The notes under the pieces: generated by a model | Told to the model about the DNA's origin: nothing | The model's database searches: none | Seen by the model: the letters and a program-made list of their open reading frames with translations, nothing else | Translations under genes and position numbers: made by a program | Origin: a virus | Virus record (IMG/VR): IMGVR_UViG_3300042398_000128 | Coordinates: 1 to 24,741 of that record | DNA length: 24,741 nt | Strand: one strand, 5' to 3' | In this document: piece after piece, positions 432 through 14,173 of the stretch | How the letters are laid out: every line of letters starts with the position of its first letter | Numbering within the stretch: the stretch's first letter is position 1

Positions 432-1445
432 ATGATACCTGTACAAACAAAAGAACACCTTATCTATTTCATGCAAAGTGGCATGATGCGTTTAAGTAAA
501 TATGACCTTCGATTCGTGCAAAATCTACAGATTCTCGCATTAGAGAAAGCCAGTCTGACTACAAATCAAGTAGCACTGTTTGACAAATTAGTTGACAAAT
601 ATCGTAGGCAATTGCACAAGCATGGATTAACTACAGAACAACTTACTGTATTAAATTGGGATTCAGAAGTTGTACCTAGCGATCCTAAGTTCACAGAAGC
701 ATATGTCACAATTGACAATAGCAATATTCTTTTCAGAAGTCCATTCAATAAAAAATTTGTAGACGCATTCAACAAAGTGCCCAACAATCCTTTCAAATGG
801 ATGAAGGAAAGGAAAGTATATGAGGCATCATATAGTACTCATGCGTTGAAATTGTTACTCAGTATATCACCTGAACACTATCCAGTTGTAAATTATTGCC
901 CAATCACTTCGGGACTATTAAATAGTACTGAACAGTTTAATGCCAAATATTGGTCACCCACTCTAGTAAAAACAAATGGTAATTACTTGATAGCGGCAAC
1001 AAACGTGCATGTTGATAAAGCTATTAATAACTTGCCATTATCAGCCGATGTTGACTGTTTAGTTAACCTATCTATACACGGTATTCGTGTAGATAATGCT
1101 ATAATCAACAATGATCCGTTACTCAAGTTTGCATCAGAGTATGAGACGGAAGTTGATTTCAAAGATGTAGACCAATTGATTACATATCTAAAAGCAATAA
1201 AATGTGATAGTGTGTTAATTACTGGACAGTCATCGATGATGGTTCAATATAGAAGAATACTAACTAACAAACTCAAGGAAGCAGAAATCAATCTTGATGA
1301 AAAAAACTTCTTAGAAATAGGATCTAGAATCAACAATCATGTAAATCCAGTGATGATAAACCTTGCATCTAATATCAACGTTCATGTTGACAAGTTAAAG
1401 AAAATAATTAGAATGAAAAATTCTACACCGGTGGTAGTTAAATGA
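432..1445 (+). CDS. Phage protein with a possible HARP-like segment, partner gene of uvsW
   Basis: A 337-residue protein of unknown function. Residues about 20-65 (L-S-K-Y-D-L-R-F ... T-T-N-Q-V-A-L-F-D-K-L-V-D-K-Y) form a helical module of a kind I recall in phage DNA-replication proteins. Residues about 90-145 (A-Y-V-T-I-D ... L-F-R-S-P-F-N-K-K-F-V-D-A-F, then W-M-K-E-R-K-V-Y and a short helix ending L-L-L-S-I) follow the HARP/SMARCAL1-type pattern found next to annealing-helicase motors. The rest is unrecognised. The gene ends in an ATGA overlap with the UvsW-type helicase, so the two are probably translationally coupled. There is no usable Shine-Dalgarno: AGG directly abuts the ATG, and the promoter position implies a leaderless start. 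A role in DNA remodelling with UvsW is inferred, not shown. Confidence 0.75.
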   Translation: MIPVQTKEHLIYFMQSGMMRLSKYDLRFVQNLQILALEKASLTTNQVALFDKLVDKYRRQLHKHGLTTEQLTVLNWDSEVVPSDPKFTEAYVTIDNSNILFRSPFNKKFVDAFNKVPNNPFKWMKERKVYEASYSTHALKLLLSISPEHYPVVNYCPITSGLLNSTEQFNAKYWSPTLVKTNGNYLIAATNVHVDKAINNLPLSADVDCLVNLSIHGIRVDNAIINNDPLLKFASEYETEVDFKDVDQLITYLKAIKCDSVLITGQSSMMVQYRRILTNKLKEAEINLDEKNFLEIGSRINNHVNPVMINLASNINVHVDKLKKIIRMKNSTPVVVK

Positions 1446-2899
1446 AATCATGTAAAGTAATTGTCAAAGATGAAGTCAACGTCAAGTTAGAGGGCCTAGA
1501 ACTAGGTGATCGTAAGACATTGATGAAGATGTTTGAGTATGAGAAGCCTGGCGCTCGGTATTTGCCAAGTGTCCGACTAGGTCGTTGGAATGGTAAGGTA
1601 AGTTATTTCAGTTTAGGTGGTACAACGTATGTTAATTTACTGCCCCAGATACTACCTCTATTAGATCAAGCTGGGTATGATATTGAGTTGGAAGATTTGC
1701 GTACATATAGCACAGTATTTAATTTCAAACAGATTGAGGAAGACACATTTAGTATGTATAACTGGCCTAAGGGCCATCCTAAAGCAGGTGAGCCTGTAAC
1801 ATTTCGTGACTATCAATTAACAGTAGTCAATGAGTTCTTAGCTAATCCACAATCAATACAAGAAGTTGCTACTGGTGCAGGTAAAACATTAATGACTGCC
1901 GCACTTAGTTACAGTATACAAGACTACGGGCGCAGTATTGTCATTGTTCCTAACAAAAGTCTAGTCGTTCAAACAGAAGCAGACTATATCAATTTGGGAC
2001 TTGATGTTGGTGTATACTTTGGTGATAGAAAAGAATACGGCAAGACACATACTATTTGTACTTGGCAAAGTCTAGGTAACATGTTAAAGAATACTAAATC
2101 AGGCGAAGCAGAAGTATCCATCGGTGAATTCATTGAAGGTGTTGTTTGTGTCATGGTTGACGAAGTACACATGGCAAAAGCTGATGTATTAAAAGAATTA
2201 TTGACTGGGGTAATGAGTCAGATTCCAATTCGCTGGGGTTTAACTGGTACTATCCCCAAAGCAATTTATGAAGCACAAGCATTGTATATCTCTCTTGGGA
2301 ACGTTACGAATAAACTATCAGCAAGTGAATTGCAAGAGAAGGGTGTACTAGCGCAATGTCACGTTAAGATATTACAACTTAAAGATGACGTTGAGTTTAG
2401 CAATTACCAAAGTGAGTTAAAGCATTTATTAGAAAACAAATATAGACTAGATGCGATAGCACAGAGAATTATAGATATCAGTCAGACAGGTAATACACTT
2501 ATCCTAGTTGACAGAGTTAATGCAGGCAAAGAATTAGTAAGTAGAATCCCTGAAAGCGTTTTTGTTTCGGGTGATACTGACATGATGGAAAGAAAGGAAC
2601 AATATGATGAAGTTGCAACTGCTAGTAAAAAGATTATTGTGGCGACTTATGGTGTGGCCGCTGTGGGTATTAATATTCCTAGGATTTTTAATCTGGTTCT
2701 TTTGGAGCCCGGAAAAAGCTTTGTACGGGTTATACAATCTATTGGGCGAGGTATTAGAAAAGCTGAAGACAAGGACTTCGTCCAAATCTGGGACGTAACT
2801 AGTAACTGCAAATTTGCAAAGAGACACCTCACACAACGAAAAGTTTTCTATAAAGAAGCTAACTACCCTTTTGATGTAGAGAAACTAACCTATAAGTGA
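1442..2899 (+). CDS. uvsW: UvsW-type superfamily 2 DNA/RNA-DNA helicase
   Basis: A 485-residue SF2 helicase. The N-terminal ~115 residues match the small UvsW N-domain in size. Motif I is A-T-G-A-G-K-T (143-149), motif II D-E-V-H (240-243), motif III around G-L-T-G-T (266-270), motif V around T-Y-G-V-A-A-V-G-I-N-I (402-412) and motif VI Q-S-I-G-R-G-I-R (432-439). In T4, UvsW unwinds R-loops, branch-migrates recombination intermediates and drives the switch from origin to recombination-dependent replication. Length and motif order fit T4 UvsW (about 500 residues). The start overlaps the upstream stop as ATGA, with GGTGG shortly before it. The DEVH box replaces DEAH, which is common in this family. 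Confidence 0.93.
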   Translation: MKSCKVIVKDEVNVKLEGLELGDRKTLMKMFEYEKPGARYLPSVRLGRWNGKVSYFSLGGTTYVNLLPQILPLLDQAGYDIELEDLRTYSTVFNFKQIEEDTFSMYNWPKGHPKAGEPVTFRDYQLTVVNEFLANPQSIQEVATGAGKTLMTAALSYSIQDYGRSIVIVPNKSLVVQTEADYINLGLDVGVYFGDRKEYGKTHTICTWQSLGNMLKNTKSGEAEVSIGEFIEGVVCVMVDEVHMAKADVLKELLTGVMSQIPIRWGLTGTIPKAIYEAQALYISLGNVTNKLSASELQEKGVLAQCHVKILQLKDDVEFSNYQSELKHLLENKYRLDAIAQRIIDISQTGNTLILVDRVNAGKELVSRIPESVFVSGDTDMMERKEQYDEVATASKKIIVATYGVAAVGINIPRIFNLVLLEPGKSFVRVIQSIGRGIRKAEDKDFVQIWDVTSNCKFAKRHLTQRKVFYKEANYPFDVEKLTYK

Positions 2900-2911
2900 T
2901 ACAATACAAAT

Positions 2912-3412
2912 ATGAGAATTTTAACCCTTGACAATCAATTTTACAATCTGGAGACTCTCCCGGATGAAATTGATGACTTACGTTTTGCGATACTTGACAA
3001 CAGTAATCCAAACAATGTAGACTATCATTATATACCATTAATCTTTTTAGAATCGTTTAACGCGCCTGCACTTGTGTTACGTGTCGGTGATACTACAATC
3101 AAAATGCCGGTAGATTGGCAAATACTGATCGGTGAAAAAGAACACGGTGATTTAGAAACACTGCCCCTGACTAGTATTAATGACAGGGGCTTTAGTGCGT
3201 TTGAGTTTAATCCACTGAGTAGTTTCAGACCTGACTTTTTGCAAATTGAGATTGTAGACATTTACCATGACGTAACTTGGTATGCACCTAGACTAAAGAA
3301 CGGGCAGTTCTTGTGTGTACCTCTAGATGACAGCACTAAACCTAGATGCATTTACTTTGTTAAAGAGATTAGTAGAAATTGTGAGATTGTAGATTATCAA
3401 CAGGCATTCTAA
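2912..3412 (+). CDS. Conserved-looking phage protein of unknown function
   Basis: A 166-residue soluble protein with no signal peptide or membrane segment. It is rich in aromatic and acidic residues and looks mostly beta (for example I-K-M-P-V-D-W-Q-I-L-I-G and W-Y-A-P-R-L-K-N-G-Q-F-L-C-V-P-L near the C-terminus). I do not recognise a catalytic motif. It lies 12 bases after uvsW and shares one base with the following gp62-like gene (TAATG), so it belongs to the replication operon. A TACAAT box (2900-2905) sits 6 bases before the ATG, but no acceptable -35 box is present, so a separate promoter is uncertain. Confidence 0.8.
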   Translation: MRILTLDNQFYNLETLPDEIDDLRFAILDNSNPNNVDYHYIPLIFLESFNAPALVLRVGDTTIKMPVDWQILIGEKEHGDLETLPLTSINDRGFSAFEFNPLSSFRPDFLQIEIVDIYHDVTWYAPRLKNGQFLCVPLDDSTKPRCIYFVKEISRNCEIVDYQQAF

Positions 3413-4008
3413 TGGCAACCAAGAAACCGCAATTAGCTAAAGACGAAAAGTTTGAGAACATTGATGTTGATTTGTTCGATATTCTTGCCGCTATAGACAA
3501 GAAAGATTATGGCTATTACGATAGACTAACAGACGAACAGAAAAAGAAGATCGTGCCTTTCATGTTAACTCACTGGATGAGTGCTATTAAAGGTAGTGAA
3601 GGACTATCACGTTATTATGTGATGAGTACAAATGAGTATGCTAACAAATATTTGTTTGCTGAATTTGTGCAACGTCATCCTAAACTTCAATGGATGATGC
3701 TGTGTAGTGCTAGCCCAGGACTAGGCAAACAATTTCATCAGTGGATCCCTCACATCAGAGACAAAGTTATCAAATACAAAGAGGCAGCGACTCTAAAAGA
3801 AATCAAAGACTACTATACAAAGATTTATCCTAAGGCTGATAGTGAAAGCATTGGCGAGGTATCTAAAGCGTATGTAACAGAACAGAAACGTAAAATGCAT
3901 CTAGGTCAAATCTATCCTCACATGAAGGTAGCTGACTTAGAAGTACTAAATCAGATTGTGTCAGATGAAGATATCGAACAGTACGAAAGAGATAGAGGAA
4001 ACTTCTAA
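3412..4008 (+). CDS. Probable DNA polymerase clamp-loader small subunit (gp62-like)
   Basis: A 198-residue helical protein. Residues about 20-110 (F-D-I-L-A-A-I-D-K-K, then P-F-M-L-T-H-W-M-S, N-E-Y-A-N-K, and K-Q-F-H-Q-W-I) follow the layout of the phage clamp-loader A subunit family: a short N-terminal helix, an xFxxxxxxS segment, a conserved N-E-x-x-N, then a basic F-x-x-W. The C-terminus has the short helical tail (A-D-L-E-V-L-N-Q-I-V) seen in those proteins. T4 gp62 is 187 residues and joins four gp44 ATPases to load the gp45 clamp. The assignment rests on pattern and on neighbours (uvsW upstream). The partner ATPase gp44 and the clamp are not in the window. An unrelated helical protein is the main alternative. 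Confidence 0.55.
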   Translation: MATKKPQLAKDEKFENIDVDLFDILAAIDKKDYGYYDRLTDEQKKKIVPFMLTHWMSAIKGSEGLSRYYVMSTNEYANKYLFAEFVQRHPKLQWMMLCSASPGLGKQFHQWIPHIRDKVIKYKEAATLKEIKDYYTKIYPKADSESIGEVSKAYVTEQKRKMHLGQIYPHMKVADLEVLNQIVSDEDIEQYERDRGNF

Positions 4009-4684
4009 ACCCAAGTATGGGTGTGAGTTTTGCGGTCGCAGTTTTTTGCGTGAGTCAACAGTACTCAAGCACATCTGCGAATATAAACATCGTTGGCTAG
4101 AGAAAGATCGCCAAAGCAATAGATTAGGCTTCCAAGCTTGGTTACAATTCTATAAAAAGAATAGTGCAAGTAAGAAGCAAAAGACCTACGAAGAATTTAT
4201 CAAGAGTGCATATTACACTGCGTTTGTTAAGTTTGGTAATTACTGTGTCGAAGTCAATGCATTGAATGTAAGTAGATATGCTGATTGGTTAGTAAAGAAT
4301 CAAATCAAGATTGATACATGGACATCCGATACAAACTACAACAAGTATTTGATTGAATATTTGCGTATAGAAGATCCACTGGATGCAATTCATCGTAGTG
4401 TTGAAACTACAATTGAGATGGCACAAATTGAAACAATTCAAAGTAGAGACTATTTGCGGTTTGGCAACAGAAACAAAATCTGTTATTCAATCACTACTGG
4501 CAAGATTAGCCCTTGGATGTTGTTTCAGTCTAAGAGTGGTATTGAGTTCATGGATCAACTTGATCCTACACAAGTAAAAATGATTATCGACTACATTGAC
4601 CCTGAGAAGTGGGCACTAAAGTTTCACAGAGAACCAGAGAATGTCAGAACAGTTAAAGAGATTCTCACAGCCGGTGGGTACTAA
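3965..4684 (+). CDS. C2H2 zinc-finger phage protein of unknown function
   Basis: A 239-residue protein starting at ATG 3965, inside the end of the previous gene (44-base overlap). The frame also has a TTG at 3956, but the ATG is preferred. Near the N-terminus is a nearly classical C2H2 finger: C20-x2-C23-x12-H36-x5-H42 with F27 and L34 in about the expected core positions; C38 could substitute as ligand. Residues 60-239 are helical and aromatic-rich with no motif I can name. Such single fingers usually bind nucleic acid or mediate protein contacts. The gene sits between the gp62-like gene and the small-gene cluster, so a role in replication or late transcription is possible but unproven. Confidence 0.75.
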   Translation: MKISNSTKEIEETSKPKYGCEFCGRSFLRESTVLKHICEYKHRWLEKDRQSNRLGFQAWLQFYKKNSASKKQKTYEEFIKSAYYTAFVKFGNYCVEVNALNVSRYADWLVKNQIKIDTWTSDTNYNKYLIEYLRIEDPLDAIHRSVETTIEMAQIETIQSRDYLRFGNRNKICYSITTGKISPWMLFQSKSGIEFMDQLDPTQVKMIIDYIDPEKWALKFHREPENVRTVKEILTAGGY

Positions 4685-4685
4685 A

Positions 4686-4865
4686 GTGCGTATACCTTGG
4701 AAGATGGGTGATACGGTTACCGATTGGAATGAAACCTGTGCACAGGCAATAGAAATGTTTGGATTGCCGGGAGATAAATTTACTACTCAACTAACAGAGG
4801 ATCATCTGGATTTCATTTTCAAAGATGAAAAAGATGCTATAATGTTTGAATTAACATGCGGATGA
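4686..4865 (+). CDS. Small LRW-family protein, first copy
   Basis: Starting at GTG 4686, preceded by GGTGGG at a good ribosome-binding distance, this gives 59 residues. An in-frame ATG at 4641 would add 15 residues but overlap the previous gene by 44 bases. The protein has W-N-E-T-C, then F-G-L-P-G-D, and ends F-I-F-K-D-E-K-D-A-I-M-F-E-L-T-C-G. That ending matches the C-terminal signature of the genes at 5545-7125 (F-x-F-x-x-E-x-D-A-x-x-F-x-L-R-W), with T-C-G in place of R-W. No function is known to me. Confidence 0.7.
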   Translation: MRIPWKMGDTVTDWNETCAQAIEMFGLPGDKFTTQLTEDHLDFIFKDEKDAIMFELTCG

Positions 4866-4868
4866 TCT

Positions 4869-5543
4869 ATGATTAAATTTATTCCAGTACCAATCAGTGA
4901 CCATGATCCCATTCTAGGAAAAGACTTCAATCAGAAGTTTGCTTCTTTTATGAGTAGATACTATGCCCCCTTTCAACAAGATGACCTTGAAATTCAACTA
5001 GCAAAAGAAACTTGGGAATATGGAATATCTAAAAATATACACAATGCAACATGGGTTGGTGCAGGAAAAAATGTTGTTGATGTAACAACACCTATTGCTG
5101 ACTTTGATGTTAAGGGTATTAGTATTCAAAATTTAAATAAGGGATTGACTACAGAGGCTAGCTTCCTACAAAACATCCAAGCAAAGAACGCTAGTTTGTT
5201 TTCCAATTTATTTGCAAGCAAAGACTATCAAGGATTGAAAACCATGTTTGTTGATCCTTACATGGCTAAGATTTCTAAAACAAACAATCTGCATCTTCTT
5301 ACTGTTATACGTGAGAAAGAAACAAAAAAGGTGTACTATTGTTTATTCAAGGTAGAACCTACTACACTAACATCTACTGAGTTTGTAGACCAAATGACAC
5401 CTATCGGTGACTGTTCTGTTACTGTTCCTATGATTGATCCGATGTACGGTAGGACATATCTATACAGCAACAAACGTAGACTGGAAATTAAACTGAATGC
5501 ATCAGGTTTAAGTTCTTTTTTAATATATTCACATAGCTATTAA
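4869..5543 (+). CDS. Phage protein with a possible PD-(D/E)XK nuclease core
   Basis: A 224-residue soluble protein. The segment V-V-D71-V-T-T-P-I-A-D-F-D80-V-K82-G-I-S-I-Q has the arrangement of a restriction-type PD-(D/E)XK site: an acidic residue, a short beta turn, then D-x-K within a hydrophobic strand. It is followed by a T-T-E-A-S-F-L-Q-N helix that could carry the conserved Q/S. The C-terminal half is beta-rich (L-H-L-L-T-V-I-R, K-V-Y-Y-C-L-F-K-V, R-R-L-E-I-K-L) and ends in Y-S-H-S-Y. No methyltransferase is nearby, so a restriction-modification pair is unlikely; host-DNA breakdown or DNA processing would fit a phage. The gene sits inside the small LRW cluster but is not a copy of it. 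The nuclease call is an inference from one motif. Confidence 0.75.
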   Translation: MIKFIPVPISDHDPILGKDFNQKFASFMSRYYAPFQQDDLEIQLAKETWEYGISKNIHNATWVGAGKNVVDVTTPIADFDVKGISIQNLNKGLTTEASFLQNIQAKNASLFSNLFASKDYQGLKTMFVDPYMAKISKTNNLHLLTVIREKETKKVYYCLFKVEPTTLTSTEFVDQMTPIGDCSVTVPMIDPMYGRTYLYSNKRRLEIKLNASGLSSFLIYSHSY

Positions 5544-5544
5544 C

Positions 5545-5961
5545 ATGTTTAGAATCAAAGCTAGAATACGTAAATGGAAAGCTGAACGAAAGCTTGAAAA
5601 AAGTGGTTACCACACCTGGTCACGTTATCGACACAACAGGGATCCTGACGTAGCGAGGTATGCCGATGATGTAGGTAGTTTCTATGAGAGGTATCCCTAC
5701 GTATGTTCCTTTAAGGATTACAGTCATTACGCATTCCAATGTATTTGTGACAATGGACCGTTTGGTGATATCTATGGATACGATGAAATGCGAGTGTGGT
5801 GTGAAGATAAGATTCGATGGAACTATCGCTTAGACATTCATAGAGTCTGGGAAGATGATTACGGTAAAGCAAAATTCGATGATGTTGGTGGTCGAGATAT
5901 AATCTACTTTGCCTTCAAGAACGAAAAAGACTTAACATATTTCTTGTTAAGATGGTCATGA
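5545..5961 (+). CDS. LRW-family protein with a long basic N-terminus
   Basis: A 138-residue protein. The N-terminal 30 residues are strongly basic (R-I-K-A-R-I-R-K-W-K-A-E-R-K), then comes a tyrosine-rich part. The C-terminal half carries the family marks: V-W-C-E-D-K-I near residue 90, and the ending F-A-F-K-N-E-K-D-L-T-Y-F-L-L-R-W-S. It is the longest member of the run, so the extra N-terminal domain may be an added module. Its last codons (AGA TGG TCA TGA) contain a weak ribosome binding site and the start codon of the next gene. Function unknown. Confidence 0.75.
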   Translation: MFRIKARIRKWKAERKLEKSGYHTWSRYRHNRDPDVARYADDVGSFYERYPYVCSFKDYSHYAFQCICDNGPFGDIYGYDEMRVWCEDKIRWNYRLDIHRVWEDDYGKAKFDDVGGRDIIYFAFKNEKDLTYFLLRWS

Positions 5962-6188
5962 AACAGAATGAGTATAGACATTTAGGTCATGAAGTTCTCA
6001 TTCATAAAGACAATCATGTACCAGCCGGACAATGGTGCGAAGAACAACTCGGAAAACGTTGGGAAGCTATTGGCTATAGGTCTGGACGGTGGTGTATGTT
6101 CTGGGCAGGTAGAAATAATTTTGACAAGTATAGATTCTGTTTTGCCACTGAACATGATATGATGTGGTTTAAGCTGAGGTGGTCATGA
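5958..6188 (+). CDS. Small LRW-family protein
   Basis: A 76-residue protein starting at ATG 5958, which overlaps the previous stop as ATGA; an ATG at 5952 would add two residues but has no upstream ribosome binding site. It contains Q-W-C-E-E-Q-L near residue 26 and ends F-C-F-A-T-E-H-D-M-M-W-F-K-L-R-W-S, both typical of the cluster. Tryptophan content is very high (seven). Its terminal CTG AGG TGG TCA codons form a GAGG ribosome binding site for the next gene. Function unknown. Confidence 0.72.
   Translation: MKQNEYRHLGHEVLIHKDNHVPAGQWCEEQLGKRWEAIGYRSGRWCMFWAGRNNFDKYRFCFATEHDMMWFKLRWS
6176..6182 (+). promoter_or_regulatory. Ribosome binding site inside the L-R-W codons
   Basis: GAGGTGG is made by the last base of the Leu codon plus the Arg and Trp codons of the upstream gene's conserved ending. 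It lies two bases before ATG 6185 (core GAGG with a 5-base gap), so it decides the ATG over the in-frame GTG at 6179. Confidence 0.75.
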
Positions 6189-6394
6189 AGATAGTAGTAA
6201 ATGTTGATAACTCAACTGAAGTATGGGCACTGCTTGAAAAACTAAAAGAAAAAAATTTGTACGTGAACAAGGACTTTACTTTTAGGTACATTCCACCTCA
6301 GTGTGATGAAGGTTGGGAAAAAATCCAACGAAAATGTGTAATATTTGATTTTGTTGACGGAAAGAATGCCACATGGTTCTCTCTGATAATATGA
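6185..6394 (+). CDS. Small LRW-family protein, diverged ending
   Basis: A 69-residue protein starting at ATG 6185 (ATGA overlap with the previous stop, GAGG ribosome binding site). The ending I-F-D-F-V-D-G-K-N-A-T-W-F-S-L-I-I aligns with the family signature, but R-W is replaced by I-I and the W-C motif is lost. It is a plausible decayed or specialised copy. It ends in ATGA, shared with the next gene. Confidence 0.68.
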   Translation: MKIVVNVDNSTEVWALLEKLKEKNLYVNKDFTFRYIPPQCDEGWEKIQRKCVIFDFVDGKNATWFSLII

Positions 6395-6633
6395 AATCAT
6401 CCCTTTATGATTGGGTAAGAGGATGGGAAGATGACCATCCATTTTGGCATACGCATGTTATAAATGCTCAAACTGAATCAGATTTAGATAAACTACACAA
6501 AGAAGTAGTATTATGGTTGTATAAAAATATTAATAATCCAGAAAGACATTGCCGTTGGATTAGACTTGACACGAAAGTTAGTGTAAAATTCAGACATGAA
6601 AAAGATTACCTTTGGTTTACGTTGAGTTTTTAA
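6391..6633 (+). CDS. Small LRW-family protein, diverged ending
   Basis: An 80-residue protein; the ATG at 6391 is chosen because it forms an ATGA overlap, while an ATG at 6373 would add six residues encoded inside the previous gene. It is tryptophan-rich (W-V-R-G-W near residue 8) and ends V-K-F-R-H-E-K-D-Y-L-W-F-T-L-S-F, matching the F-x-x-E-K-D-x-x-W-F-x-L core with S-F instead of R-W. The Shine-Dalgarno is weak, so coupled translation is likely. Confidence 0.68.
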   Translation: MKSSLYDWVRGWEDDHPFWHTHVINAQTESDLDKLHKEVVLWLYKNINNPERHCRWIRLDTKVSVKFRHEKDYLWFTLSF

Positions 6634-6634
6634 T

Positions 6635-6856
6635 ATGGTAACAATATATCTACGTGACTTTACAAATGAACATGAAGCTTGGATCGCAAAAAATATAGGT
6701 CCAAGAATGCATTGGATACACAATAGCAGAGGTGGGCAAGGTTGGATAGCAAAGAGAGATTTTCGACCCGGAATAGGAAGTGCTTGGGCTCTTACATTTG
6801 AAGATGATAGACAAGCAACTTTTTTTGGACTGATGTTTTCGGAAGTATTAGCATGA
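6635..6856 (+). CDS. Small LRW-family protein, diverged
   Basis: A 73-residue protein whose ATG follows the previous stop by one base. Residues 10-30 hold an A-W-I-A-K-N-I-G helix comparable to the W-C helix of the others. The ending A-L-T-F-E-D-D-R-Q-A-T-F-F-G-L-M-F matches the family core (F-E-x-D-x-x-A-x-F-F-x-L) and is followed by six extra residues. Those extra codons include GGAAG, a ribosome binding site for the next gene, with which it shares ATGA. Confidence 0.68.
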   Translation: MVTIYLRDFTNEHEAWIAKNIGPRMHWIHNSRGGQGWIAKRDFRPGIGSAWALTFEDDRQATFFGLMFSEVLA

Positions 6857-7125
6857 CTAAAAATGTAGAAAAAGATACAATAGACAACCTGAGCAGGATT
6901 ATGGCAGAAGAAATTGATTGGGAACTTATGGTAGATATGATGATAGCAGTGGGCTGGATTAAAGTATCTATACCTAATTCATGGTCAGATATGACATCAT
7001 CGTTCTCACGTGAAATTAAAGAATGGTGTAGGGATAATGTCAAAGGTCACTATAATAATAGAGGTCGAATGTGGGTGTTTGAAAAGGCAGAAGATGCTGA
7101 ATGGTTTATGTTGAGGTGGCTATGA
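6853..7125 (+). CDS. Small LRW-family protein
   Basis: A 90-residue protein starting in an ATGA overlap. The N-terminal half is helical and acidic (I-D-N-L-S-R-I-M-A-E-E-I-D-W-E-L). The C-terminal half carries the complete signature: E-W-C-R-D-N-V near residue 57, and the ending W-V-F-E-K-A-E-D-A-E-W-F-M-L-R-W-L. The final codons TTG AGG TGG CTA TGA again make GAGGTGG plus ATGA for the next gene. Confidence 0.73.
   Translation: MTKNVEKDTIDNLSRIMAEEIDWELMVDMMIAVGWIKVSIPNSWSDMTSSFSREIKEWCRDNVKGHYNNRGRMWVFEKAEDAEWFMLRWL
7113..7119 (+). promoter_or_regulatory. Ribosome binding site inside the L-R-W codons (second case)
   Basis: GAGGTGG lies two bases before ATG 7122, the same spacing and reading phase as at 6176. 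It supports 7122 rather than the in-frame ATG at 7101, which lies inside the previous gene and has no ribosome binding site. Confidence 0.75.
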
Positions 7126-7475
7126 GTTTTAAAGTAAAAAAGTTTAATGTACAAGGTGTTACCTATATGGTAGACTGGCCACAAACATCAGAAATGAATA
7201 AACATATTAAGAAAACAGACTTGTTTGAGATTATGTTTAGAACCGTTCGCAGTGACCATGCTGGTCTTGCAATCAAACTCAATAACAATGAATATGATAT
7301 AATGTGGGTCAACAGTGATGTGTGGTTTAATAAAAAGAACTATACAGAATATGTGCGAGACATGTATGAGATTGTTGGGTTAGCGTTTAAAAATGAAACA
7401 GAAGCAAACTGTTGTGCTGAAATCATGAACAAGAATCTAATGTGGAGAATACTAGATGGCAATTACACCGTTTGA
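7122..7475 (+). CDS. LRW-cluster protein, distant member
   Basis: A 117-residue protein starting at ATG 7122 (ATGA overlap, GAGGTGG ribosome binding site). Residues about 82-105 read I-V-G-L-A-F-K-N-E-T-E-A-N-C-C-A-E-I-M, which is the family F-K-N-E-x-x-A core followed by a different tail ending M-W-R-I-L. The N-terminal part (V-T-Y-M-V-D-W ... A-G-L-A-I-K-L) appears beta-rich. Membership in the family is weaker than for its neighbours. It overlaps the next gene by 20 bases. Confidence 0.65.
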   Translation: MSFKVKKFNVQGVTYMVDWPQTSEMNKHIKKTDLFEIMFRTVRSDHAGLAIKLNNNEYDIMWVNSDVWFNKKNYTEYVRDMYEIVGLAFKNETEANCCAEIMNKNLMWRILDGNYTV

Positions 7476-7704
7476 TACATTATCACCCTACATAGAAATT
7501 GTTGAATATGAGTGTGTAAACACATGTGACTCCGGTAAAGTTATTTTTCGTTGTAAAGATAATCCATTGGAAGTCATTAAGTGGTGTCGCAAAAACTTTG
7601 GCAACAGAGGTGATGGTTGGGACTTTTCAGGGTCTGCTAAGACTGTAGATATTACGATATGGTCTAGTAAACTGATAACTATGTATGAATTATGGCAGAA
7701 CTAA
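7456..7704 (+). CDS. Small LRW-cluster protein, distant member
   Basis: An 82-residue protein with a GGAG ribosome binding site upstream of ATG 7456. It has I-K-W-C-R-K-N-F-G-N near residue 43, the W-C helix of the family, but the ending (T-I-W-S-S-K-L-I-T-M-Y-E-L-W-Q-N) keeps only the final L-W. It closes the cluster; the next gene starts one base after its stop and is unrelated. Confidence 0.65.
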   Translation: MAITPFDTLSPYIEIVEYECVNTCDSGKVIFRCKDNPLEVIKWCRKNFGNRGDGWDFSGSAKTVDITIWSSKLITMYELWQN

Positions 7705-7705
7705 T

Positions 7706-8401
7706 ATGAATGAATTGATTGATGGCAAGGGTTACGTTGTAGCTGAACGCTACATACCAGAGAAACTAATAGATGCAGTACATAACAAACTGCACACATT
7801 ATATCCAGTGAGAGCTAGTAGTACTAATAAGCAATACGCAGAGGGTGAGAAGATAAAAGACTTGCCTGACATTAACGTTTGGTGGAGTCAGATGGTAATG
7901 GACTGGCCCGAAGTTATAGAGATAGAATCTATGGTCAACGAACTAGTGAAGCCATATCTACCTACATTAGAATGGTATGCTAGTGATATTGTAGTAATTG
8001 AGGGTAACAGCACATGGATTAATCCGCACGTAGACACCCCGCATCGATTTAAGAAATACAACTACGATAAGCGACTGTTAGGCGTACAATCAATTGTTTC
8101 ATTATTTGACTTAGACAAGACTAGAGGAGTTACTGGAGTAGTTCCTGGAAGTCAAAAACAAGATCACAATATAAACTTATGTTATCAGGGCTTCTACAAT
8201 TCTCACTTCAATAAAAATTGTGTGCAACCTAACTTACCCAAAGGAAGTGTTTTATTATATAATTGTAGAGTATTGCATAGCAGTATGCCCAATACACAGG
8301 ATACACTTCGCCAGGCTCTATTGATTAATTACCTAGATAGTAGTATAATCAGTGATATCCGATCTACGGATAACATATGGAATAATGATAATGGCAAATG
8401 A
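7706..8401 (+). CDS. PhyH-type Fe(II)/2-oxoglutarate dioxygenase
   Basis: A 231-residue enzyme (start ATG 7706; an ATG at 7685 would lie inside the previous gene). The iron-binding triad is visible as H108-V-D110 in N-P-H-V-D and H191 in V-L-H-S-S-M-P-N. R202 in L-R-Q-A-L-L-I-N-Y is placed to bind 2-oxoglutarate. V-V-P-G-S-Q is the typical PhyH loop. Such enzymes hydroxylate small molecules, sugars, nucleobases or peptides and are frequent in T4-like phages of aquatic hosts; the substrate cannot be read here. Being next to an epimerase and a nucleotidyltransferase suggests a sugar or surface-modification role, but this is inference. Confidence 0.85.
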   Translation: MNELIDGKGYVVAERYIPEKLIDAVHNKLHTLYPVRASSTNKQYAEGEKIKDLPDINVWWSQMVMDWPEVIEIESMVNELVKPYLPTLEWYASDIVVIEGNSTWINPHVDTPHRFKKYNYDKRLLGVQSIVSLFDLDKTRGVTGVVPGSQKQDHNINLCYQGFYNSHFNKNCVQPNLPKGSVLLYNCRVLHSSMPNTQDTLRQALLINYLDSSIISDIRSTDNIWNNDNGK

Positions 8402-8948
8402 TGTAATGATCGACCTTGAGACACTGAATACAGCACCTGATTGTGTTGTATTGTCTATTGGTGCGGTAAGGTTCGATCCTAGGGGCAATGGCGTAGTAGA
8501 ACGATTAGAACTCAAGCCTACAATAGAAGATCAAACAGAAATATATAATAGGAGTATCAATGACGATACAATCAGATGGTGGGGACAACAAAATCCAGCG
8601 GCTCTTGAAGAAGCATTTAGTGAAGATGGACGTATCCCTTTTGCTGAGTGTATGGAGACCCTTTATAAGTTTTGTTGGAATCGCCGTGCTGTCTGGAGTA
8701 ATGGCGCTCCATTTGACCTTGTCGTCATGGAGCATGCCTGGAGACAAGTTAGTGACAAGCCAAATCCCATCCCTTGGCCCTTCTACACAATGCGAGATAC
8801 TCGAACATTGTACGAAATCGCAGGAGTAAGTCTTAAAGACGGTGGACATTCTACAAGTCATAAAGCGGTAGAAGATGCTGAACGACAATCTATTGTCGTG
8901 CAAAAGGCATATATGAAATTAATGAAAGCAGGGTTAGCTATAAAATGA
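8391..8948 (+). CDS. DEDDh 3'-5' exonuclease (DnaQ/RNase T-like)
   Basis: A 185-residue protein starting at ATG 8391 (11-base overlap with the dioxygenase gene). D8-L-E10 in M-I-D-L-E-T is motif I, D109 in N-G-A-P-F-D-L is motif II, and H157 with D162 in H-K-A-V-E-D-A form motif III, the full DEDDh set. R-W-W-G-Q-Q after the first motif and T-R-T-L-Y-E-I-A fit the Rv2179c/exodeoxyribonuclease VIII-like phage branch. It likely removes nucleotides from 3' ends of DNA or RNA. It shares ATGA with the next gene. Confidence 0.88.
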   Translation: MANDVMIDLETLNTAPDCVVLSIGAVRFDPRGNGVVERLELKPTIEDQTEIYNRSINDDTIRWWGQQNPAALEEAFSEDGRIPFAECMETLYKFCWNRRAVWSNGAPFDLVVMEHAWRQVSDKPNPIPWPFYTMRDTRTLYEIAGVSLKDGGHSTSHKAVEDAERQSIVVQKAYMKLMKAGLAIK

Positions 8949-9406
8949 AAACATACGGTGACGAATTACCAGGCGTACGCATAGTACATAGAGCACAGCA
9001 CGTTGATAACAGAGGTTATTTCAGCGAGACTTGGAAGATGACTGATGATGGTATGCGTGGTACATATCGTCAGTTGAACACAGCAGTATCAACACAATAT
9101 GTTGTCAGGGGTATGCATAGACAAGATCAGTATAAGCTGGTCATGCCTGCATATGGTAGAATATTTGATGTAGCAGTAGAACCAAAGACTGGTAAGTGGT
9201 TTGGTGTTGAACTAGATAGCACATTAGGCTTGTTGATTCCACCTCAATATGCACATGGATACATGGCATTGACAGACAATGCAATTGTACAATATATTGT
9301 AGACATGCCTTATAACAAAGAGATTGAAGAAAACTTCAAATGGAATGGATATACCATACAATGGCCTAATGCCATTGAGCCAATACTTTCGGAGAAAGAC
9401 AAATGA
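8945..9406 (+). CDS. RmlC-like dTDP-sugar 3,5-epimerase (compact)
   Basis: A 153-residue cupin, shorter than the usual 180 or so. R-G-Y-F-S-E-T-W (23-30), Q-L-N-T-A-V-S (43-49), R-G-M-H58-R-Q, G-R-I-F-D-V-A-V (71-78), P-P-Q-Y-A-H104-G-Y and the final L-S-E-K-D152 reproduce the conserved RmlC blocks. H58 and D152 match the catalytic dyad positions. RmlC epimerises dTDP-4-keto-6-deoxyglucose on the way to dTDP-rhamnose; RmlA, B and D are absent, so the phage would rely on a host intermediate or act on a related sugar nucleotide. ATGA overlaps at both ends tie it to its neighbours. Confidence 0.85.
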   Translation: MKTYGDELPGVRIVHRAQHVDNRGYFSETWKMTDDGMRGTYRQLNTAVSTQYVVRGMHRQDQYKLVMPAYGRIFDVAVEPKTGKWFGVELDSTLGLLIPPQYAHGYMALTDNAIVQYIVDMPYNKEIEENFKWNGYTIQWPNAIEPILSEKDK

Positions 9407-9888
9407 AGATAGGATTTAACTGTAGCAGTTTTGACTTGCTACATGCAGGGCATGTAACCATGCTAAAGATGGAAAAGCAATTGTGTGACTACTTAATTGT
9501 TGCGTTACAAATTGACCCTACGATTGACAGACCCGGCGTAAAGAACAAACCTATTCAAAGTGCATATGAACGTTATGTGCAATTGCAGGCTTGCAAGTAT
9601 GTAGATGAAATTCTTATCTACGAAACTGAATATGACCTGCTTCAACTGCTAATGACACAGAAGATTGACATTCGATTCCTAAGCGATGAATACTTGAATA
9701 GAGACTTCACTGGTAAACAATGGTGTATGAACAATGGAGTTGAATTGTATTATCATAAGCGCAATCATGATTATAGTTCAAGTGAACTCAGAGCCAGAAC
9801 TGCTAGACTTGAACGACTAAAGGGTGTAGAATCAATTGATGAGGAACCCCCACAGTACTCACCTGATCTAGTAAAGAAGCATTCATGA
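9403..9888 (+). CDS. Cytidylyltransferase-like nucleotidyltransferase (TagD/RfaE type)
   Basis: A 161-residue protein. F-D-L-L-H14-A-G-H17 is the HxGH nucleotide-binding signature and Y-S-S-S-E-L-R (124-130) is the second conserved block of this superfamily. A-Y-E-R-Y-V-Q-L-Q-A-C-K-Y-V-D-E-I lies between them, as in glycerol-3-phosphate cytidylyltransferase. The enzyme would link a CMP or AMP to a phosphorylated polyol or sugar. Residues 140-161 form an acidic, proline-containing tail not needed for catalysis. With the RmlC-like gene it makes a small activated-sugar module. GGAG upstream and an ATGA overlap mark the start. Confidence 0.87.
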   Translation: MKIGFNCSSFDLLHAGHVTMLKMEKQLCDYLIVALQIDPTIDRPGVKNKPIQSAYERYVQLQACKYVDEILIYETEYDLLQLLMTQKIDIRFLSDEYLNRDFTGKQWCMNNGVELYYHKRNHDYSSSELRARTARLERLKGVESIDEEPPQYSPDLVKKHS

Positions 9889-10466
9889 AATTCAACAGTG
9901 ACATTGACATTGACTTTGGAGATAGAGATAAGATTCTATCTCTGATTGACCACATTCCTGCGGCAATGCGTAAGATTAATCCCATGCGTAAACATGCCAC
10001 TGGTGTTCATGTCACTGATGTTCCCTATGATCCTGTCAATGATATGGCAAGTATTGACTACAGTGAAGCAGAAAAGCGCGGATACTTGAAACTAGACTTG
10101 TTGAATGTACACATATACAATCAAATTCGTGATGAACGTCATTTGATTGAACTTATGCGAGAACCCAATTGGGATCATCTAAAGAACAAAGATTTTGTTG
10201 AGAAGTTGATTCACTTGAATAATCAATATAGCACATTAAGAAGTATGCCAGAATCAGTGAATAGTATTCCTAGACTTGCTATGTTTTTAGCTATCATTCG
10301 TCCGGGAAAGAAGCACTTAATTAGTAAGACTTGGAAAGAAGTAGCAAAAACAGTATGGGACAAAGATCATACAGGATACACATTCAAAAAGAGTCACGCA
10401 ATTGCATACTCACATTTAGTAGTAATTCACATGAATCTGTTGGAAGAGACTACGGTAATCGTTTGA
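9885..10466 (+). CDS. Miniature protein matching the catalytic skeleton of DNA polymerase III alpha (DnaE)
   Basis: A 193-residue protein in an ATGA overlap with the nucleotidyltransferase. Five blocks occur in the same order as in the DnaE polymerase domain: S-D6-I-D8-I-D10-F (P-D-F-D-V-D-F, the catalytic Asp pair), K-H-A-T-G-V-H-V (K-H-A-G-G-V-V-I), G-Y-L-K-L-D71-L-L-N-V (G-L-V-K-F-D-F-L-G-L, third catalytic Asp), F-L-A-I-I-R-P-G (V-A-L-F-R-P-G) and G-Y-T-F-K-K-S-H-A-I-A-Y-S (G-Y-G-F-N-K-S-H-S-A-A-Y-A). All three catalytic aspartates appear kept. Segments between blocks are greatly shortened, and the PHP, beta-binding and OB domains are missing. Real DnaE is over 1,000 residues. Whether it polymerises, binds nucleotide only, or acts as a decoy is unknown. 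Confidence 0.8.
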   Translation: MKFNSDIDIDFGDRDKILSLIDHIPAAMRKINPMRKHATGVHVTDVPYDPVNDMASIDYSEAEKRGYLKLDLLNVHIYNQIRDERHLIELMREPNWDHLKNKDFVEKLIHLNNQYSTLRSMPESVNSIPRLAMFLAIIRPGKKHLISKTWKEVAKTVWDKDHTGYTFKKSHAIAYSHLVVIHMNLLEETTVIV

Positions 10467-10830
10467 CAAGTGTGATACTGCGTCTTTTTGACCTGCGCTT
10501 ATGAAGTTCATTCATACTAGTAATAGGACCATGTAAAACTGTCAGATTTTTGTTCGTGAATGTTCTGAGAAAGGGCTTAAACATAGTCCAATCATCTTTC
10601 AAAAACAGGTTAATGGGAATCAATCTATTTGATTCCCACCACCATACGTCCCCTAATTCTAAAAACTTAGCTTTTGCGACGGGTTCCATTATCGCTCCGT
10701 AATCATAGATAGTGGTTACGGAATCATCCCTATTCTGGATTATTCCTACGTAGTCTTGATTAGCGTAAGAACAAACCGTTATGAAAGGATGATTCTCGCT
10801 AAGTTTTTTAAAAAACTCATTTTGTGCCAT
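10450..10830 (-). CDS. Minus-strand phage protein of unknown function
   Basis: A 126-residue protein, the only convincing minus-strand gene in the window. The middle has G-D-V-W-W-W-E-S-N-R-L-I-P-I-N-L-F-L, a striking aromatic block, and the C-terminus is very basic (K-R-R-S-K-R-R-S-I-T-L-V-K-R). I recall similar W-W-W-E-S-N-R proteins in T4-like phages of cyanobacteria, with no assigned role. Its 3' end overlaps the end of the mini-DnaE gene by 17 bases tail to tail. Upstream, a CTAAATA motif on the minus strand (10889-10895) is a candidate late promoter. No clear Shine-Dalgarno precedes its ATG. Confidence 0.75.
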   Translation of the reverse strand: MAQNEFFKKLSENHPFITVCSYANQDYVGIIQNRDDSVTTIYDYGAIMEPVAKAKFLELGDVWWWESNRLIPINLFLKDDWTMFKPFLRTFTNKNLTVLHGPITSMNELHKRRSKRRSITLVKRLP

Positions 10831-11745: not shown

Positions 11746-11754
11746 CGTAGTATG
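11730..11754. repeat. Inverted repeat across the primase promoter and start codon
   Basis: CATACTA (11730-11736) and TAGTATG (11748-11754) are perfect 7-bp arms with an 11-base loop holding the -10 box. The right arm contains the ATG. It could be an operator; if transcription starts at the ATG, the arms cannot pair in the mRNA. Confidence 0.5.
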
Positions 11755-12732
11755 TTTGATATCCTAACCATCGTACCGGGCAGAAAGAAACTGTCTCATA
11801 GTGGATGGCACAGTTTTAATGCAATATGTTGTAATCATCGAGGTCACAAGGCTGATAAGCGTGGCCGCGGTGGCATTTGTTTGGATGGTGACAACTGGTC
11901 TATGCACTGCTTTAACTGTGGGTTCAAGTGTGGTTTCACGTTAGGTAAGAGTCTATCAAAGAACACTAAGCAGTTTCTTATTTGGTGTGGTGTTGACGAG
12001 CAACAAATACAGAAGTGGAGCTTAGAGAGTCTACAACACAAAGACCTATTAAGTTACGTTAACGTCAAAAAGCAAAAGTCAAAAGTAAAATTCAAAGAAC
12101 ATTTGTTGCCTGAAGAAGCAGAACTCATTGACGTAAACAACCCACTACACAAAGTATATGTAGACTATCTACGGAACAGGTCTATAAGTATTACTGATTA
12201 TCCCTTTATGATTACCCCAGATGAGTTGGGTAGAATGGGTAATCGTGTTATAATACCTTATACATATCATAATAAGATTGTAGGTCATACAAGCAGATTT
12301 TTAGACAACAAGATTCCCAAGTACATCAATGAACAGCAGCCGGGCTATGTATTCGGTATTGACTTTCAGAAGCCTGAGTGGGAAGTATGTATTCTTGTTG
12401 AAGGTATCTTTGACGCATTGAGTTTGAATGCTTGTGCATTGACTCATAATACTATAAGCGAAGAACAAGCTAACGTATTGGCGCAGTTAAACAGAAAGAT
12501 TATCTTTGTACCAGATCGTGATAAGACAGGTCTTGAGACATGTGATAGAGCATTAGAGCTAGGGTATAGTGTAAGCATACCTGATTGGGATAATGACGTA
12601 AAAGACGTAAACGATGCGGTTGTAAAGTATGGTAAATTGATGACATTGATTAGCATACTTCAGTCAGCAACTACAAGTAAAATTAAAATAGAATTACAGA
12701 GGAAGAAAATTGGCAAACAAAACAGATTCTAA
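11752..12732 (+). CDS. DNA primase (gp61-like)
   Basis: A 326-residue primase. A zinc-binding head contains C26, C27, H29, H32, C53, C56 and C60 (C-C-N-H-R-G-H and C-F-N-C-G-F-K-C). The TOPRIM fold shows L-V-E217-G-I-F-D221-A-L and V-P-D255-R-D257-K-T-G, the metal-binding residues. T4 gp61 (342 residues) makes RNA primers for Okazaki fragments together with gp41; here the helicase gene follows with a 23-base overlap, so the primosome is co-expressed. No Shine-Dalgarno lies before the ATG, and the promoter position implies a leaderless message. Confidence 0.92.
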   Translation: MFDILTIVPGRKKLSHSGWHSFNAICCNHRGHKADKRGRGGICLDGDNWSMHCFNCGFKCGFTLGKSLSKNTKQFLIWCGVDEQQIQKWSLESLQHKDLLSYVNVKKQKSKVKFKEHLLPEEAELIDVNNPLHKVYVDYLRNRSISITDYPFMITPDELGRMGNRVIIPYTYHNKIVGHTSRFLDNKIPKYINEQQPGYVFGIDFQKPEWEVCILVEGIFDALSLNACALTHNTISEEQANVLAQLNRKIIFVPDRDKTGLETCDRALELGYSVSIPDWDNDVKDVNDAVVKYGKLMTLISILQSATTSKIKIELQRKKIGKQNRF

Positions 12733-14173
12733 AAAGCAAATGGAATACACCCCGGATGTACAAAAACTGTTTTTGAGAATGATGTTAACTAATGCCGAGT
12801 TATATACTCGGGTTATGAACATCATGAACAGTGAGAATTTTGACAAATCGTTACGCCCCGTAGCAGAGATGTACAAGGAACATACTGACAAATATAAAGT
12901 TCTACCAGATCAAACTCAGATTCAAGCAGTTACTGGAATAGATATAGATCCTATTCCTGAAATGAACGAGGGTCATCAAGACTGGTTCTTAGATGCGTTT
13001 GAAGCATTCACTAAAAGACAAGAGTTAGAACGTGCTATTCTTAAAGCAGCCGATATGCTTGAAAAGGGAGATTATGGCCCAGTAGAGAAACTAATCAAGG
13101 ATGCTGTGCAAATTAGTTTACAGAAAGACATGGGTACAGATTACTTTCATGACCCTAAAGGCCGTATCAATAAGTATTTCAATGCAGGTGGACAAGTCTC
13201 TACGGGTTGGCCTCAGATGGATCGTATCTTATACGGTGGCATGAGTCGAGGCGAGTTGAACATCTTTGCAGGTGGTTCAGGTTCAGGTAAGTCATTGGTC
13301 ATGATGAACATTGCGTTGAACTGGTTGCAACAAGGTATGAGTGGTGTTTATATCACACTCGAACTCTCAGAAGAACTTACTAGTTTGCGTACTGATGCGA
13401 TGTTAACGCAGATGGGTACTAAATCAATTCGCAAAGATATCGACACAACTGATCTTAAAGTTAAGATGATTGGTAAAAAATCAGGTAAGTATCGTGTCAA
13501 GGGTCTGCCTGCACAAAGCAATGTCAATGACATTAGAGCATACTTAAAAGAAGTACAGATTCAAACAGGTATCAAGATTGACTTTGTTATGGTCGACTAC
13601 TTGGACTTAGTTATGCCGGTCTCTGTTAAAGTCAATCCCAACGATCAATTCATTAAAGACAAGTATGTTGCAGAAGAATTACGTAACTTAGCTAAAGAAC
13701 TAGGAGTGTTACTAGTCACAGCATCACAGTTAAATCGTTCAGCCGTTGATGAAATTGAATTCGATCACAGTCACATTGCAGGCGGTATCAGTAAGATTAA
13801 CACAGCAGATAATGTATTTGGTATCTTCACAAGTCGTAGTATGCGTGAGCGTGGCAAGTATCAAATGCAGTGTATGAAGTCTCGTAGTTCAACAGGTGTA
13901 GGACAGAAAATTGACTTAGATTATAATGTTGAAACTATGCGTATTACAGATGAAGATCCTGACGGATATGCAGACCAACAAGCAAAATACGCTCCTAAAC
14001 CTAGCCCTAATGCTATCATGGATAAGCTAAAAACTCAGTCTACTGTCTCCCCGGCATCATCCTCAACACCTGATCCTAATCATAAATTCGACTTTTCTCC
14101 ATTAGAAAAGAAAGTCGTAGCCGACGTACAGGGTACAAAACTCAAAGCTTTGCTGAATTCACTAAAGAAGTAA
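12710..14173 (+). CDS. Replicative DNA helicase (gp41/DnaB-like)
   Basis: A 487-residue RecA-fold hexameric helicase. Walker A is G-G-S-G-S-G-K-S (188-195), the downstream E is in L-E-L-S-E-E, Walker B is F-V-M-V-D296-Y-L-D-L, and T-A-S-Q-L-N-R (337-343) is the DnaB sensor motif. K-S-R-S-S-T-G-V-G near residue 395 is the arginine/lysine-finger region. The N-terminal 150 residues form the helical collar domain, and the last 60 are low-complexity P/S/T. The start is a TTG at 12710 with a strong AGAGGAAG before it; the next ATG (12740) has none. It unwinds DNA at the fork in partnership with the primase upstream. Confidence 0.93.
   Translation: MANKTDSKKQMEYTPDVQKLFLRMMLTNAELYTRVMNIMNSENFDKSLRPVAEMYKEHTDKYKVLPDQTQIQAVTGIDIDPIPEMNEGHQDWFLDAFEAFTKRQELERAILKAADMLEKGDYGPVEKLIKDAVQISLQKDMGTDYFHDPKGRINKYFNAGGQVSTGWPQMDRILYGGMSRGELNIFAGGSGSGKSLVMMNIALNWLQQGMSGVYITLELSEELTSLRTDAMLTQMGTKSIRKDIDTTDLKVKMIGKKSGKYRVKGLPAQSNVNDIRAYLKEVQIQTGIKIDFVMVDYLDLVMPVSVKVNPNDQFIKDKYVAEELRNLAKELGVLLVTASQLNRSAVDEIEFDHSHIAGGISKINTADNVFGIFTSRSMRERGKYQMQCMKSRSSTGVGQKIDLDYNVETMRITDEDPDGYADQQAKYAPKPSPNAIMDKLKTQSTVSPASSSTPDPNHKFDFSPLEKKVVADVQGTKLKALLNSLKK

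Follow-up and report, generated by a model that had tools for sequence, protein, structure and literature searches.

An uncultured phage fragment encodes the C-terminal half of a split minimal DNA polymerase III alpha

Introduction

The stretch of phage DNA considered here (the window) comprises positions 1 to 24,741 of the IMG/VR record IMGVR_UViG_3300042398_000128. It encodes a 193-residue protein, part B, which is the C-terminal half of a split minimal DNA polymerase III alpha (Pol III alpha, in bacteria named DnaE). The preceding segment of DnaE is encoded in related phages by a distant gene, part A. We consider it likely that part B is the metal-binding half of a two-gene minimal Pol III alpha, the halves of which associate to act as an accessory polymerase or nucleotidyltransferase.

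A split enzyme of this type has been described in group 2.2 jumbo phages, in which one gene encodes an N-terminal part that binds NTP and another, distant from it, a C-terminal part that binds Mg and template, beside a family B polymerase (Iyer et al. 2021, Viruses 13:63, PMC7824862). The window protein is the C-terminal part of that system, and no difference between the proteins was found; the window differs in that it is a fragment of an uncultured phage with the partner gene outside it. Because the split pair was already known, the window protein is an environmental addition to an existing system. The present analysis adds data on the occurrence of the genes in environmental sequences, a carrier that at 142 kb is not a jumbo phage, and a small convergent gene that is found only beside part B. 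In the literature searched, no biochemical or genetic test of the split enzyme was found.

A single truncated "DNA polymerase III alpha" has also been noted in phages CBB and Atu_ph07 (PMC5259590, PMC6102473), where the Atu_ph07 paper lists one alpha subunit (PMC6102473); in neither paper was it connected to a second half. With its 172 residues and a location close to gp44, CBB_328 is apparently the partner half. The "split DNA polymerase" of MIJ3 is a different thing, i.e., a family B polymerase split by an intein.

Table 1. Features of the window and their positions.
Feature	Position	Strand	Remarks
UvsW-type helicase	1442..2899	+	conserved upstream neighbour; orthologues annotated UvsW
phrog_11758 gene	3412..4008	+	198 aa; resembles T4 gp62 clamp-loader small subunit by eye; kept in part-B loci
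phrog_11058 gene	3956..4684	+	242 aa; N-terminal CxxC...HxxxxxH zinc-finger-like segment; conserved ahead of part B in the majority of relatives
Run of small ORFs	4641..7704	+	products often ending alike (FLLRWS, WFKLRWS, WFMLRWL); similar-ended ORFs at 5545..5961, 5952..6188 and 6853..7125
Variable cargo	7685..9888	+	just upstream of part B; in some relatives only
Rv2179c-like 3'-5' exonuclease (PF16473)	8352..8948	+	close upstream of part B in 65/90 loci compared
Part B	9885..10466	+	193 aa; PHROG 11778
SDIDIDF block	9897..9917	+	residues 5-11; metal-binding D6, D8 = E. coli DnaE D401, D403; invariant
KHATGV block	9990..10007	+	residues 36-41; = DnaE K510-H511; H37, G40 invariant
KLDLL block	10089..10103	+	residues 69-73; K69, D71 = DnaE K553, D555; invariant
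IRPGK block	10296..10310	+	residues 138-142; = DnaE R639-P640; R139, P140, K142 invariant
FKKSHAIAY block	10383..10409	+	residues 167-175; = DnaE F756-H760 region (fingers); F167, H171 invariant
Convergent gene (phrog_11637)	10450..10830	-	126 aa; 3' end overlaps part B by 17 bp
DNA primase (phrog_47)	11752..12732	+	conserved neighbour
DnaB-like replicative helicase (phrog_19)	12710..14173	+	conserved neighbour

Sequence and Conservation of Part B

The part B reading frame is unbroken from its ATG at 9885 to the stop codon at 10464-10466, and its start codon overlaps by four bases with the stop of an upstream nucleotidyltransferase ORF that ends at 9888. The PHROG 11778 profile ("DNA polymerase") matches residues 3-190 with E = 1.7e-57, and two families of full-length DnaE give weak but independent matches (phrog_405, 2.5e-5; phrog_11165, 3.5e-4), in agreement with the homology that had been proposed from the letters and translations. 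Searches with the single sequence gave no usable match in Pfam and NCBIfam, and only chance matches in PDB (phmmer). In comparisons with orthologues of 74-92% protein identity, dN/dS is, where computable, ~0.03-0.08, i.e., the gene is under purifying selection, where the values are rough because synonymous sites are mostly saturated.

All five DnaE blocks listed in the first-pass annotation are found in order (Table 1), an arrangement that is far beyond chance. Homologues in other phages, which that annotation had proposed to look for, were readily found: 78 were aligned, composed of sequences from environmental contigs and proteins of phages with Pseudomonas, Klebsiella, Cronobacter, Escherichia, Erwinia, Agrobacterium, Sinorhizobium and Vibrio hosts. 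Fourteen residues are invariant in 78/78, i.e., D6, D8, D10, H37, G40, K69, D71, R139, P140, K142, W158, F167, H171 and N184, and these include the three aspartates that had been singled out as catalytic. A profile of the 78 homologues is collinear with residues 400-420, 538-558, 607-641 and 739-767 of E. coli DnaE, where single blocks are weak, and a profile alignment places part B residues 33-142 on DnaE 507-642. From these alignments it follows that D6, D8 and D71 are equivalent to D401, D403 and D555.

Relative to DnaE, part B has lost 79 residues between D403 and K510, a segment that we take, from the published domain map of the E. coli protein, to be about the thumb, and a further 89 between R639 and F756, among them the RRAMGKK segment of the fingers. 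It begins at about DnaE residue 397, directly past the dNTP-binding GS motif (GxGRGS), which is absent from the ORF, and the KSHA block is followed by just a short helix. Given a total length of 193 residues and these losses in spacing, the thumb, the full fingers and the PHP, clamp-binding and OB domains are not in part B, and the last three had correctly been listed as gone.

The Partner Half

In a whole-genome search, 12 of 15 related records were found to hold a second small ORF that matches only the first third of PF07733 (positions ~16-99). This partner, part A, is ~170 residues long, scores above the PF07733 cut-off and belongs to PHROG 11127, which the PHROGs collection holds as a "DNA polymerase" family separate from that of part B. 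Partner ORFs end in ...GRGSSVAS...YDLDxxEFLK followed by a stop codon, and they align to DnaE 321-393 by profile (323-393 with hhalign). Together with the equivalence of D6 and D401, this alignment implies that part A stops at ~393 and part B starts at ~397; as aligned, the two are adjacent, non-overlapping pieces of DnaE. The GxGRGS motif is invariant in 43 aligned partners, where the residues that never vary are G134, G136, R137, G138, S139 and S143. In Pol-beta-type enzymes the GS motif holds the incoming nucleotide, and in DnaE it is found at G363-S364.

The partner gene was not found within the 24.7-kb window. In the nearest well-covered relative (G003, with a part B that is 82% identical) it lies ~44 kb from part B, which would explain why it is missing from a fragment of this size. 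The distance between the two genes ranges from ~11 kb in Slickus01 to >200 kb in Phosso and is usually tens of kb. The partner is located a few genes upstream of the clamp loader gene (gp44-type), and a GroES-like gene often lies between the two. The overall first-pass reading is upheld for the DnaE-like core with its aspartates; what could not be seen from the window is that the NTP-binding half is not lost but is a separate gene in relatives.

Predicted Structures

AlphaFold models of the two halves are confident, with a pLDDT of 91.8 and a pTM of 0.82 for part B, and 88.7 and 0.70, respectively, for part A. A structure prediction compared with Pol III alpha had been suggested as a check of the homology; in a Foldseek search against PDB, structures of bacterial Pol III alpha (among them Taq 4iqj, 2hpi and 3e0d, and also 7pu7 and 5lew) occupy the first eight places for part B and the first seven for part A, with a best probability of 1.00 for each half. 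Neither an unrelated fold nor a lack of profile matches to DnaE, both named in the first-pass annotation as refuting outcomes, was seen. The best E-values, 1.7e-3 and 0.077 for the two halves, are modest, and TM-scores amount to ~0.34-0.45 of the query, where low values are expected because the fold is pruned. When sequence profiles were searched against PDB, Pol III alpha ranked first for both halves, a result that is not significant alone. In the part B model, D8 lies in the strand formed by residues 7-11 and D71 in that formed by residues 69-74, while D6 is found just ahead of the first strand.

Co-occurrence and Distribution

Both halves are present in 12/12 phage records examined by profile, and of the phage records in which tblastn clearly detects the partner, 57/57 also carry part B; in XacN1, CM1 and Slickus01 the partner is detectable by profile. 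Among the 61 part B records listed (of 63), only PP728206.1 (109 kb) showed no partner. Ten IMG/VR contigs >100 kb hold both halves, and others hold one half, i.e., part B in G004, G006 and G007 and part A in G013 and G014, all of which may be fragments. One option raised in the first-pass annotation, a single self-sufficient mini polymerase or transferase, is not supported by these data, since the GS motif resides on a second protein and both genes are found in every well-covered genome.

A family B polymerase, the presence of which elsewhere in the genome had been anticipated, is encoded by the complete phages that were tested and by the longest of the related contigs, and 12/12 closely examined phage records carry one. 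A family A polymerase is absent from the related phages searched, and a phrog_405 search of related genomes revealed no DnaE fragment beyond the two halves, except a weak 27-residue match in Phosso (E = 0.01).

Part B is encoded on at least 290 environmental stretches; for the partner the number is at least 595. Among the relatives, G001 has a length of 352 kb and G002 one of 335 kb. The Alishewanella phage Slickus01 (OQ508957.1) has a circular genome of 142 kb with both halves and a family B polymerase, and the trait is therefore not confined to jumbo genomes. In a search of host genomes just five GTDB contigs matched part B, three of them well (~47%). All three are contigs of metagenome-assembled genomes, binned as Rickettsiales, Natrialbaceae and Pacearchaeota, and they are probably mis-binned phage DNA.

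Gene Neighbourhood

Part B is located in a replication cluster with a conserved gene order, i.e., the UvsW helicase, several small genes, part B, the convergent gene, the primase and the DnaB helicase. The Rv2179c-like exonuclease upstream of part B is a candidate proofreader, and in RaK2, GAP32 and other phages an annotated DNA polymerase exonuclease (DnaQ-type) subunit is found close upstream of part B. The variable cargo listed in Table 1 includes PhyH-type dioxygenase, dTDP-4-dehydrorhamnose 3,5-epimerase-like and cytidylyltransferase-like genes. The shared end motifs of the small ORFs farther upstream suggest tandem duplicates.

The convergent gene, phrog_11637, was detected at 88/90 part B loci, and all 58 phage records in which it occurs carry part B (58/58). 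In those regions that were inspected, it and part B lie tail to tail. Its product has a conserved WWW and a conserved basic C-terminus, KRxKRR; no Pfam match was obtained, and a profile search of PDB found nothing. A third component of the split enzyme is a reasonable guess for this candidate. The more specific proposal of a three-component machine, in which part A contributes the GS motif, part B the metal-binding aspartates and the phrog_11637 protein a replacement for the missing thumb or template-binding part, is unlikely; if true, this would be a polymerase or nucleotidyltransferase of modular build, without a counterpart among the family C enzymes that consist of one chain.

Proposed Function and Alternatives

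In the mechanism that we favor, the partner (~170 aa) would supply the preceding palm segment with the NTP-binding GxGRGS motif, while part B would supply the three metal-binding aspartates, the palm strands with KHxxG and KxD, and much shortened fingers. The two chains most likely bind each other, and a single Pol-beta-type palm active site would thereby be rebuilt. Compared with bacterial Pol III alpha (DnaE; TIGR00594, PF07733, PF17657), the order of palm and fingers motifs and the predicted fold are alike, but the split enzyme consists of two chains with ~360 residues together, against 1160 in the single chain of DnaE, and is devoid of the PHP domain, a thumb-sized segment, RRAMGKK and the clamp-binding, OB and C-terminal parts. 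The combined halves would thus restore a palm without the thumb, most of the fingers and the PHP, clamp-binding and OB parts, and the product may be a thumbless polymerase of low processivity (distributive) or a nucleotidyltransferase. Beside the family B replicase it could serve in repair, gap filling, primer extension or a strand-specific task, possibly aided by the product of the convergent gene (phrog_11637) and by the 3'-5' exonuclease encoded nearby.

Because a thumb-sized segment and the RRAMGKK segment of the fingers are missing, template-directed synthesis is not assured. The main rival reading, which we regard as unlikely, is that the pair is active without a template, as a terminal or specialized nucleotidyltransferase built on a Pol-beta palm, for example in end tailing, primer capping, or modification of nucleotides or proteins. 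Such an activity would fit the retention of the GS, DxD and D core motifs together with the deletion of segments that hold template and primer. However, the RPG and KSHAxAY motifs on the fingers side are kept, with R139, P140, K142, F167 and H171 invariant, and the genes are found among those for primase, helicase, UvsW and clamp loader, which argues against this rival.

The large deletions relative to DnaE and the full family B polymerase in the same phages could also indicate a non-catalytic relic, i.e., a structural or regulatory replisome subunit such as a binder of primer termini or dNTPs. This explanation is improbable: a relic would be expected to have lost a metal ligand in some lineage, whereas all catalytic columns are invariant in 78 part B and 43 part A proteins and purifying selection is strong. 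Still less credible is the decoy raised in the first-pass annotation, which would block the host Pol III replisome and for which resemblance to the host DnaE is the sole argument. It is disfavored because the catalytic columns are invariant in both halves and the genes reside in a replication cluster, a context that is not one of early host take-over; in addition, the partner half co-occurs with part B, and the DnaE regions that contact the clamp, tau and epsilon are, by the established domain anatomy of DnaE, absent.

Implications

The split polymerase has been retained in phages that are highly diverged from each other and that possess a family B replicase in any case. Now that the site of the cut is defined to the residue and the invariant positions, the co-occurrence of the halves and an exclusive convergent companion are established, a reconstitution test is direct. 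If the accessory polymerase reading is true, one phage would harbor two unrelated replicase families at once, and a working two-chain family C polymerase of ~360 residues would set the minimum for a Pol-beta-type replicative palm.
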